A stretch of 64,000 nt of DNA. It comes from Mixia osmundae IAM 14324. Lineage: Eukaryota; Basidiomycota; Mixiomycetes; Mixiales; Mixiaceae. The notes below the pieces were generated by a model. That model was not told where the DNA came from. It saw only the letters and a program-made list of their open reading frames with translations, and made no database searches. Below, in pieces: positions 52,334-62,744 of this stretch (position 1 is its first letter; every line of letters starts with the position of its first letter). Location of the stretch: contig NW_014575556.1 of assembly GCF_000708205.1 (NCBI RefSeq), forward strand, positions 678,267 through 742,266, in the 5' to 3' direction. Made by a program: the position numbers and the translations under genes.

Positions 52334-52655
52334 CTTGCTGTCGCTGCTGAGTCTCGCAGCAGTCGGCAAGCGCCTTGTCCTGTTTGTTGCATTTACTGTC
52401 TGCGCGTGTTTGCCTTTGCGCGATGCCACGCTTGCCTGGAATCTGTCTCTCATCCTTCACGGCTCCATGATTCCTTCCTCATCGTCGGCTTCTGCGCGGA
52501 TATTGTCGTATTTCACAGCTACATGGTGCTGTTCCGGTCTCGAGAAGGCGAGATCTCGAAGATCGAGGCACCAGTCGCCAGCACGCATCGGTACCCAGCC
52601 TTCGTGACCTTATGTATCGCCAGCTGTCTTCGAGTGATCAGAAATTGACATACGA
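52334..52655. other. Region between ATP17 and the inverted-repeat element
   Basis: A 322-bp gap holding the ATP17 promoter. A plus-strand frame ending at 52648 encodes a hydrophobic stretch (SFLIVGFCADIVVFHSYMVL) but has no ATG start or clear splice signals, so I do not call a gene. Confidence 0.35.
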
Positions 52656-52824
52656 ACCGGTACGTGAGAGTGTGATACGAGTCAGCATTGCGAAAGGACC
52701 GACAGCAAGCCATCGAATCGATTGAGGCACGAAAGATCAGAAGACCTTTTGTTAGGTCGATGACCTGATTCTAGAGTTTCGTCTGCCAAGAACAGATACT
52801 ACACTTCATCAGAGTCAAAAGGCC
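52656..52824 (+). repeat. Left inverted-repeat arm
   Basis: 169 bp; its reverse complement recurs at 53975-54143 with roughly 91% identity counted by eye. The central blocks GACAGCAAGCCATCGAATCG and GTTAGGTCGATGACCT are identical in both arms. Confidence 0.8.
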
Positions 52825-53034
52825 TGTTGACGAAAAAGCATTAGCAACCTGAATAGCGACCGAGCTAAAAGTGACTGGGCAGAAACGGTTTTTGGGTTGG
52901 CGCTCACATCTACCCCTTGATGTGCCTCGATACACCTCTGTCATTCCACTCAATGATAGACCTTTTAGCTATACGAAGAGTATGCTCACGTCTGAAATAG
53001 AAGCCTCGGTGATCAGCCTCTTCAGGATCGTCTC

Positions 53035-53574: not shown

Positions 53575-53974
53575 AGGCTCTCAAGCCCATGAGACATAGA
53601 TTCGGCTGCCCCGCGGGCGAATTCGGCGACGGCGAACGCAGCGTGCAATAGCTTGTGTGAGATCATGACGTGTGCTCTGCACTCGCAGCCCATGCATAGC
53701 TGGCGTTGGGCATCTCTTTTACGTGCGAGCGAGCGTGCGCGAGTGTTTGGGCTGAGAATGTATGCAAAAGGATAGAACAACGCTCGATCTGATCTATCGA
53801 AGTGCTTTGAAAAGGCAAATGTAAGCCTGCCGACCGTATCAAGCATCGGTATGTCCACTGCACTGAGGTCGAGTCCTGTTCTACATTGTCCAACAGCCGT
53901 TGTGCCTTGATCACACTGAATCTTCTGGAAATTAGGTATATATAGTTTGCGCTGACTCGCAGGACACCGTTTCT

Positions 53975-54143
53975 GGCCTTTTGGCTTTGATCAAGTGTAG
54001 TATCTGTTCTTTCTAGACGAAACTCTAGAATTAGGTCATCGACCTAACAAAAGTTTCTCTGATCTTTCGCGCCTGAATCGATTCGATGGCTTGCTGTCGG
54101 TCCTTTCGCAATGCTGGCTCGTATCACACTTTCGCGTACCGGT
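53975..54143 (-). repeat. Right inverted-repeat arm
   Basis: 169 bp, inverted relative to 52656-52824 and of exactly the same length, which argues for a bounded element rather than chance similarity. Confidence 0.8.
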
Positions 54144-54369
54144 GTTAAGGCATCCCCTTCTTTTTTGGCTTTTCCTTTTTCTGCTCCACCTTGCTGTACG
54201 CGTCAGCCGAAGCGGGTTGTACACCACGCATGGCTGCCACGACTGGCCTGACGACTCGGTTTTGAAATCACATCCGGCTTGCGCTCGGTCGATCGCATAG
54301 ACAAACATTATGTATGACATGCTACGGTGGGGCGTGAGAAAAGATTTTACCGTCTGGGATGGCCGAGCG

Positions 54370-54421
54370 GCAAGTCAAACTTGTGAGCCTGAGTGACGTC
54401 GCTGATATTCTGCACTCTCAG
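54370..54421 (+). other. 52-nt D-loop insertion in tRNA-Ser with GC-AG spliceosomal-intron hallmarks
   Basis: The insertion begins GCAAGT, the best GC-type 5' splice site in the window. It contains GCTGAT about 18 nt before its end (branch-like) and ends CTCTCAG. Its length equals that of nearby mRNA introns. Removal yields GAGCG joined to GTTTAAGGC, an ordinary D-loop. Internally CAAGT/ACTTG and CCTGAG/CTCAGG can pair. Whether the spliceosome, the tRNA endonuclease or nothing removes it cannot be told from sequence. Confidence 0.75.
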
Positions 54422-54442
54422 GTTTAAGGCGGCAGTTTTGAA

Positions 54443-54454
54443 TTCCCTAGAATT
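54443..54454 (+). other. Canonical anticodon-loop tRNA intron (12 nt)
   Basis: TTCCCTAGAATT lies directly after position 37, the standard site cut by the eukaryotic tRNA splicing endonuclease. The exact edges are ambiguous by one base. Confidence 0.75.
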
Positions 54455-54502
54455 AGCTGCTGGGTTCGCCCTCCTGTGTTCAAATCACAGTTCCAGAGAT
54501 CA

Positions 54503-54508
54503 TTTTTT
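54503..54508 (+). terminator. RNA polymerase III terminator
   Basis: Six T residues begin five bases after the tRNA discriminator base, the usual Pol III stop. Confidence 0.85.
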
Positions 54509-61444: not shown

Positions 61445-62744
61445 TCATGCGATTCTCTTGGGTTGGCCGTCTGACGCGACGAGAGAGTGGTCTGCGCTTA
61501 GCACGCGCGGTCCGTCGCCTACTCGGGTATGGATAAGTCGGCTGACGCTTTCCGGCGGAAAGACAGTCGATACTTTCACGTTGAAGCCAGCAGGCAGGGA
61601 GCCTTCTTTTCTATCTTTCCCCGGAAAAAAGTGAGAGACGAGTGCGATGATCTCGGGCATGCTTTGCTCGAGTGCGTAGATGACCGCATTCGGCCCTGCG
61701 TCGAATGTGTAAGCCGCCACAAGACCTTTGCCAGCTTCTGTCGAGAGTCTGTTGAGTTCTGTGATGACTGCGATGATTGACCTTGACACGTCGTTCAGAT
61801 AGAAGATAGGTGGGAAAGTGTCCATGCAGACTGCATGGAAGCTATTCGAATCCTTCATGGTGATTGTTGCAAAGGTATCAAAATCGCGTTGGTTGATTGC
61901 CTTTGTGATCTCTGCCATTCTCTCGGGCACGACAGAATTGATGCGCTCTTGCAGCAGTGTCGAAGTCTGCACGGTCCTTTGCATGCCCGAAGTAGAAGAA
62001 GTGCCTTTCTTTGCATCCGACACCACGCAGATCAGTGCTTTCATGCCCGCCCAATGTGTCTCGGGCGCAACTTGGACAGCTAACGAGTCCTGCCCATCCG
62101 CAGAGGCGCCCATTTCCCAAGCGACATACCCGCCAAACAGTGACCGACAGGCTGATCCTGAGCCCTGTCGTGCTATTCTCGATAGCTCAGATGCGTTCTC
62201 AGGCAGCTGGTATAGTTTTGCGAGCGTGAAGACAAGCGCTGCGAAGCCTGAAGCTGATGATGCTAGGCCGGCAGCGGTAGGGAAGTTGTTCTCTGACACG
62301 ATGTGCAAGTGACAGCTCGACAGCGCCTGCGAACCGTGCACCTTGTCATCAGCCTTCTTTGCCTCAAAGAAGAGCTTACTTTGCCGTCAATGTCTTTCTG
62401 TGAGGCTGATTGTTCGAGTTGTCGCCTGAGCTTGCGCATTTCCTCGAGACAAGTCGTCATCCTGCCTTCGCCATCTAGAGCGACGCTCGAGCCATTCAAC
62501 CACAGCGCGTCTCGTGTGAAGGTTGCATCTGCACGTATGCTCGTTGTAGAGCGCAGATCATCTTGCGACAGCGTCAGAGAAAGGGACGAATTGGTTGGCA
62601 GAATGAGCGCAGTGTCCCTCTTGCCCCAATATTTGATGACTGCGATGTTGACCTGTTTTAGCACCAAAGCAAAGCATCAGCATACACATGATGTACATGC
62701 ACTCGACTGACCGGCGCCGAGCATGTCGCCTCGACAAATGTCAT
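61445..62744 (-). CDS. MVD1: Diphosphomevalonate decarboxylase
   Basis: Predicted 400 residues; exons 62744-62712, 62652-62380 and 62341-61445. GHMP-kinase-fold motifs are [46 protein letters not shown] (phosphate loop), [16 protein letters not shown] and the catalytic-Asp helix [14 protein letters not shown]. It makes isopentenyl diphosphate from mevalonate diphosphate, feeding ergosterol and ubiquinone (COQ5 is also in this window). Intron 2 is only 38 nt (GTAAGC donor, CTGATGAC branch). The first exon encodes just [11 protein letters not shown]. Confidence 0.96.

Follow-up and report, generated by a model that had tools for sequence, protein, structure and literature searches.

The window analysed here is a stretch of 64,000 nucleotides (contig C8, positions 678267-742266) from the 13.5-Mb, 19-contig assembly of Mixia osmundae, a member of the Pucciniomycotina that its genome and nucleosome paper describes as having no close relatives (PMC3376729). 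The diphosphomevalonate decarboxylase encoded on the minus strand of the window (61445-62341 and just upstream) is 100% identical to the protein of M. osmundae IAM 14324. A tRNA-Ser(UGA) gene occupies 54353..54498 of the plus strand, and a UbiE/COQ5 methyltransferase reading frame opens about 370 bp downstream of it on the same strand. A U2 snRNA gene (53966..54153, plus strand) lies 199 bp upstream, for which we claim no functional link to the tRNA; it scores 44.6 bits against a gathering score of 46, has several broken pairs and is a variant or decaying copy. A second U2 copy (52642-52836, minus strand) is inverted relative to the first and 91% alike over 169 bp.

Read directly and recomputed, the unspliced tRNA gene spans 146 nt and comprises an acceptor stem (TCTGGGA/TTCCAGA), T8, an A box TGGCCGAGCGG (54360..54370), the anticodon TGA, a B box TGTTCAAATCA (54477..54487) and the discriminator G73 (54498), followed by a Pol III terminator-like run TTTTTT (54503..54508), all on the plus strand. 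Two blocks interrupt it, also on the plus strand. One is a canonical 37/38 intron of 12 nt, TTCCCTAGAATT (54443..54454). The other, of 52 nt (54370..54421), sits in the D-loop at about position 18/19, outside the canonical position, and is an mRNA-type GC-AG intron with a 5' splice site GCAAGT (54370..54375), a branch-like site GCTGAT (54401..54406) whose A lies 16 nt from the intron end, and a 3' splice site CTCAG (54417..54421). Excision of both leaves 146-52-12 = 82 nt, which ARAGORN folds into a Ser(tga) cloverleaf that has every stem and the long variable arm, whereas the unspliced gene, or the gene minus the 52-nt block only, is labelled Gln(ttg). The Rfam tRNA family gave no match at this gene, either at its gathering score over the window or at an E value of 10 over 801 bases. 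After intron removal the sequence presents the features of a functional tRNA-Ser(UGA) gene: cloverleaf, variable arm, G73, A and B boxes and terminator.

Re-reading confirmed every element of a serine tRNA named in the earlier note on this DNA (stems, G73, variable arm, A and B boxes and T6 terminator), and its GCAAGT start, GCTGAT site, CTCAG end, normal 12-nt intron and length of 82 nt after removal proved exact to the base. The note had also set the block immediately 3' of the A box; that position stands, but the junction can slide over three equivalent registers. Only one of them gives GC-AG ends, and there the intron opens with the G that closes the A box.

Further tRNA genes that carry mRNA-type introns

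The earlier note had called for a genome scan for other D-loop insertions; in this one genome four more tRNA genes proved to carry an mRNA-type insert, at four other sites. In tRNA-Ser(GCU) (locus L079, minus strand), a 51-nt insert at junction 25/26 separates GGTTAACGC from GCTGCCCTGCTAAGGCAG, starts GTGAGC, contains GCTGAC and ends ACATAG. In tRNA-Arg(UCU) (L062, minus strand), the insert, again of 51 nt, runs from GCAAGT to TCCAG between GGTTATGAG and TTCGAATCTC at junction 53/54. The tRNA-Lys(UUU) gene (overlapping loci L204 and L245) is interrupted at junction 60/61, between GGTTCGAGT and CCCACACTCGGTG, by 55 nt that begin GTACGT, contain GCTGAT and end TGCAG; its junction has a single register, which is exactly GT...AG. 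Finally, tRNA-Pro(AGG) (L098, minus strand) holds 49 nt from GTGAGC to GATAG between GGTACAGG and GTTCGACTCC at junction 52/53, together with a separate 12-nt 37/38 intron. Excision of the inserts yields Ser, Ser, Arg, Lys and Pro cloverleaves in ARAGORN, and a run of T5 or longer lies downstream of all five intron-bearing genes.

These genes came to light by different routes. Ser(UGA) was taken from the earlier note; Ser(GCU) emerged from an A-box pattern and a structure finder, and Arg(UCU) from a tRNA-family match, the splice signals of both being recognised afterwards. Lys(UUU) gave a weak family match (27.6 bits), its 3' part being located by a search for GT-AG blocks, and Pro(AGG) was found by a scan for splice signals, so that these two are not independent of the signals that helped to find them.

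The five inserts share the signals of mRNA introns. Their ends are GC-AG in two and GT-AG in three, with YAG in all five; the 5' splice sites (GCAAGT, GTGAGC, GCAAGT, GTGAGC and GTACGT) have G at +5 throughout; and a YTNAY branch site lies 11-16 nt before the end of every insert (criterion range 7-35 nt), in the CTRAY form in four, whereas in Arg(UCU) the choice is limited to TTAAC and CTCAC. For comparison we mapped six mRNA introns in the window: two in the decarboxylase gene, placed exactly with the Mixia protein, and four in a GH63 glycosidase gene, for which the protein search listed no Mixia entry and on which splice-aware alignments to three homologues concur. The alignment to P0122 gave three further glycosidase introns and that to P0124 one; not being common to all three alignments, these were left out. 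All six are GT-AG, and five have CTGAY, the sixth having no YTNAY in range and only GTAAT. The inserts measure 49-55 nt and the mRNA introns 46-59 nt, in keeping with the earlier note's remark that the Ser(UGA) insert resembles nearby mRNA introns in length and signals. GC-AG ends occur in two of the five inserts against none of the mRNA introns, of which six are too few to give a background rate. A special fold of the inserts was rejected, since folding energies were ordinary in the four inserts other than that of Pro(AGG) (z -0.16 to 0.69), and as regards an introner family we saw no sequence similarity among the five inserts or to the other DNA compared, a small part of the genome.

Chance accounts poorly for these signals. 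Among segments of 51-55 nt from all over the window, on both strands, the combination G[TC], +5 G, YTNAY and YAG occurred at a rate of 3.9e-4 (248 of 639,470), and its stricter CTRAY form at 1.3e-4 (80 of 639,470). At the former rate, with two and three registers respectively, the probability of finding the signals in both Ser(GCU) and Arg(UCU) is about 1e-6, a figure confined to these two genes because only they are free of selection on the signals. We also ran a strict excision scan over 338,354 bases of Mixia DNA, with four duplicate loci left out and some overlap remaining. Its 3,497 candidates with real signals gave seven junction-spanning calls, namely the five genes (Lys(UUU) on both of its overlapping loci, and Ser(UGA), with the 37/38 intron still in place, read as Gln) and an artefact in L059, where the call falls on the 3' terminus of a complete tRNA-Thr. 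Three decoy signal sets of 3,631, 3,161 and 1,811 candidates (8,603 in total) gave no call at all in the same scan. Looser scans (40-75 and 40-110 nt) yielded no new acceptable gene and are not evidence, because ARAGORN tolerates wrong boundaries and the decoys match the same known loci; only the strict scan therefore discriminates. A tRNA-Gly with a 171-nt intron that ARAGORN proposed in L034 was dropped as spurious.

In four of the five genes the insertion leaves both internal promoter boxes unbroken. The A box of Ser(UGA) is kept because its intron begins with G, and the B boxes of Arg(UCU) and Pro(AGG) are kept because their introns end with AG or G; the Ser(GCU) insert lies between the two boxes, and the Lys(UUU) intron cuts off the last two bases of the B box. 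This pattern is as expected if only insertions that spare the promoter survive, but five cases are no proof, and searches based on A and B boxes favour genes in which they are spared.

The tRNA gene set and copy number

We located tRNA genes with the Rfam family, ungapped A- and B-box patterns, a structure-only finder and ARAGORN, and obtained at least 29, each with a different anticodon and including the five described above; the Ile(AAU) gene among them was read by eye, ARAGORN labelling it Asn(att). Of the 29, 23 contain an ordinary 37/38 intron, in the case of Ser(UGA) and Pro(AGG) alongside an mRNA-type one; another three are interrupted by an mRNA-type intron alone, and three (Gly UCC, Ser AGA and Met CAU) have no intron. 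The 21 ordinary introns outside the five genes measure 9-28 nt. The Mixia tRNA set thus looks intron-rich and nearly single-copy. Of 180 candidates the family search scored 63, and three intact tRNAs of 40.5-47 bits escaped it; genes for His, Cys, Asn, Val, initiator Met, Ser(CGA) and others were not located, which reflects the limit of the search and is no evidence of their absence.

Copies were sought through the A box for three of the five genes, Ser(UGA), Ser(GCU) and Lys(UUU). We read 117 of 125 Ser/Leu-type sites, comprising 52 of 52 matches to TGGCCGAGNGG and 65 of 73 matches to TGGCDGAGYGG; of the eight unread sites of the latter pattern, five lie near contig ends and three in the overlap described below. 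Apart from an identical Ser(UGA) copy on contig C17, these 117 sites held no second Ser(UGA) or Ser(GCU) gene. The Lys A box TAGCACAATTGG has one other site in the genome, which is not a tRNA. A further A-box pattern gave 68 sites, of which 40 were read and yielded two ordinary tRNAs (Phe and Ile), three were known genes and 25 are unread; another pattern with 312 sites showed no tRNA in the 11 read among the matches listed.

The C17 copy of Ser(UGA) was rejected as a second gene, being identical and apparently the product of contig overlap. Contig C17 (152,222 bp) matches the end of C8 in collinear order, the offset staying constant at 623,140, with shared pattern sites from C17:16,601 on and 100% identity over the 9,935 bp compared; the last 60 bases of C8 are found in C17 at the expected place, and C17 extends about 19 kb beyond. 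We take this overlap as contig redundancy, the alternative being a recent large duplication.

Several other features of the genome were recorded along the way. Ser(GCU) has a tRNA-Lys(CUU) gene about 460 bp away on the opposite strand (L079, 1978-2076, plus strand), whose T-loop, ATCGTTG, is unusual. The one U6 snRNA gene that we found has no intron and lies about 1.5 kb from tRNA-Leu(UAG) (L053, C14:256202-258529). The 11-mer TGGCAGAGCGG recurs at C5:2186, C6:1610, C6:1056905, C7:560, C7:842965, C8:939 and C12:411542, several of these sites lying within about 2.2 kb of contig ends, which suggests a shared subtelomeric repeat.

The codons that correspond to the intron-bearing tRNAs are in use: the five open frames of the window (2,305 codons) contain 27 AGA, 26 AAA, 56 AGC plus AGT and 32 UCA. 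The intron-bearing tRNAs may be the sole readers of their codons.

Proposed removal of the inserts

In the reading that we consider likely, the D-loop insert of 52 nt is a spliceosomal intron of the U2 type with GC-AG ends, lies in a nuclear tRNA-Ser(UGA) gene transcribed by Pol III and is removed by the spliceosome; different tRNA genes of Mixia would hold at least five introns of this kind. The earlier note had raised the invasion of a tRNA by an mRNA-type intron and its spliceosomal removal; as far as sequence can speak to this, four more genes, matching mRNA introns, the lack of a bulge-helix-bulge motif and zero decoy calls support the proposal, and the five-gene finding is real and larger than the note had it. 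Counting against spliceosomal removal are the intronless U6 gene, the GC-AG ends in two of five inserts against none of six mRNA introns, the branch candidates of Arg(UCU), the cut B box of Lys(UUU) and a four-pair helix in Pro(AGG).

The inserts might instead be ectopic tRNA introns that are cut by the tRNA splicing endonuclease and whose GT/GC-AG ends are accidental. Introns outside 37/38, sometimes two or three per gene, have been reported from Cyanidioschyzon merolae, nucleomorphs and Crenarchaeota. Those in the D or T arm are known in C. merolae and cryptophyte nucleomorphs, and many in Guillardia theta have no defined bulge-helix-bulge; ordinary endonuclease-type introns, moreover, are abundant in Mixia (23 of the 29 located genes). 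The Mixia inserts resemble the known ectopic introns in lying outside 37/38. They differ in that the latter are attributed to cleavage by the tRNA endonuclease, for the most part at a bulge-helix-bulge, and measure 3-24 nt in G. theta, whereas the inserts are 49-55 nt long and carry splice signals. Nor does their length match that of the 21 ordinary Mixia introns outside the five genes, only 9-28 nt, and the accidental occurrence of splice signals and of mRNA-intron length in five inserts is very unlikely.

The structure of the junctions bears on the same question. We took a bulge-helix-bulge, following a published definition, to be a central 4-bp helix with one or more bulges and at least one flanking helix of more than 2 bp; in the relaxed form of the motif, too, one flanking helix is reported to exceed two pairs. 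Across all sequence-equivalent registers, and with shuffled controls, none of the five inserts has the motif in strict or relaxed form, in a test that is weak for eukaryotic introns because ten ordinary Mixia introns scored only 2-8 of 10 pairs. The central helix reaches at most 3, 2, 2 and 1 of 4 pairs in Ser(UGA), Ser(GCU), Arg(UCU) and Lys(UUU), in line with the earlier note, which had seen no clean motif at Ser(UGA). Pro(AGG) does form all four central pairs, which speaks for endonuclease cleavage, but two of these are G-U and each flanking helix has one pair. The fractions of shuffled inserts that reach the observed pair sums are 0.53, 0.28, 0.26 and 0.58 for the first four genes and 0.15 for Pro(AGG). 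This result argues against removal by the endonuclease, which we regard as improbable.

We think it equally improbable that all five are pseudogenes or disrupted genes whose tRNAs are supplied by intact copies elsewhere. A review notes that an insertion in the D or T arm of a eukaryotic tRNA gene mostly affects a single member of a large synonymous set, which is supposed to be a pseudogene; the genome search, moreover, was lossy, the family search having passed over the three intact tRNAs mentioned above. Against this, the stems, discriminators and terminators are kept in the five genes and both internal boxes in four, and each anticodon was seen once among the 29 located genes. The earlier note held that several intact Ser(UGA) genes elsewhere, together with a silent locus, would mark this gene as a pseudogene; the 117 A-box sites read out of 125 held none for Ser(UGA), or for Ser(GCU), bar the C17 copy, and the other Lys A-box site is no tRNA.

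Least probable is Pol II transcription within longer transcripts, from which the inserts would be spliced as in mRNA: it would explain splicing without any link between Pol III and the spliceosome, and the methyltransferase frame opens downstream of Ser(UGA) on the same strand, but the contiguous A and B boxes of four genes and the T5 or longer runs after all five stand against it.

Under spliceosomal removal from Pol III transcripts, the polymerase would transcribe Ser(UGA) from its internal A and B boxes, and the major spliceosome would take out the intron of 49-55 nt as a lariat. Removal of the intron would let the D or T arm form, and end processing would follow arm folding. Removal of the 37/38 introns of Ser(UGA) and Pro(AGG) by tRNA endonuclease and ligase would come next, a step that we place after arm folding because Sen54 has been reported to contact the D-arm.

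Relation to known introns and significance

The mRNA-type intron of fungal U6 must be excised for a working RNA, and U6 is a known Pol III host. Such introns, known from fission yeast and other fungi, resemble the Mixia inserts in being short, of spliceosomal type and carried by a small Pol III RNA. They differ in that U6 is itself a part of the spliceosome, whereas the Mixia hosts are tRNAs interrupted at five different sites and the Mixia U6 gene is intronless. The introns of fungal U3 snoRNA genes are reported to be of the normal spliceosomal kind, and their host is likewise a structured non-coding RNA, of a different class from tRNA; U3 may be a second Pol III precedent, since an abstract calls it a polymerase III gene. 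Canonical 37/38 introns, among them those of 12 nt in Ser(UGA) and Pro(AGG), differ from the inserts in position, in their shorter length and in having no shared GT/GC-AG and branch signals.

One review, which does not use the word spliceosome, names nucleomorphs and C. merolae as the sole sources of D- and T-arm introns in its section on eukaryotic tRNA introns, and a second review confines nuclear tRNA introns to position 37/38. No spliceosomal tRNA intron is listed in the sections of a 2025 intron-border paper that we consulted, and the word tRNA is absent from the main text of the Mixia genome and nucleosome paper (PMC3376729), which reports work with RNA-seq reads of the fungus. Among the full-text literature matches listed, a body of work largely outside subscription journals, we recognised no report of spliceosomal introns in nuclear tRNA genes from titles and the beginnings of abstracts. 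Genes of this kind may stay unseen: the description of tRNAscan-SE 2.0, in the part that treats non-canonical introns, gives their analysis for the archaeal search model, and Ser(UGA) was misread by both Rfam and ARAGORN.

By a widely used rule, endonuclease and ligase take the introns out of nuclear tRNAs and the spliceosome does not; if our reading is true the Mixia genes would be an exception to it. A Pol II transcript would then not be needed for entry into the spliceosome, and Pol III genes too could gain introns, provided that their A and B boxes were spared. For Mixia itself, the apparently single-copy state of the Ser, Arg, Lys and Pro genes suggests that the spliceosome is probably obligatory for tRNA maturation: decoding would depend on the splicing of Pol III transcripts, and some precursors would pass through two unrelated machines in turn.
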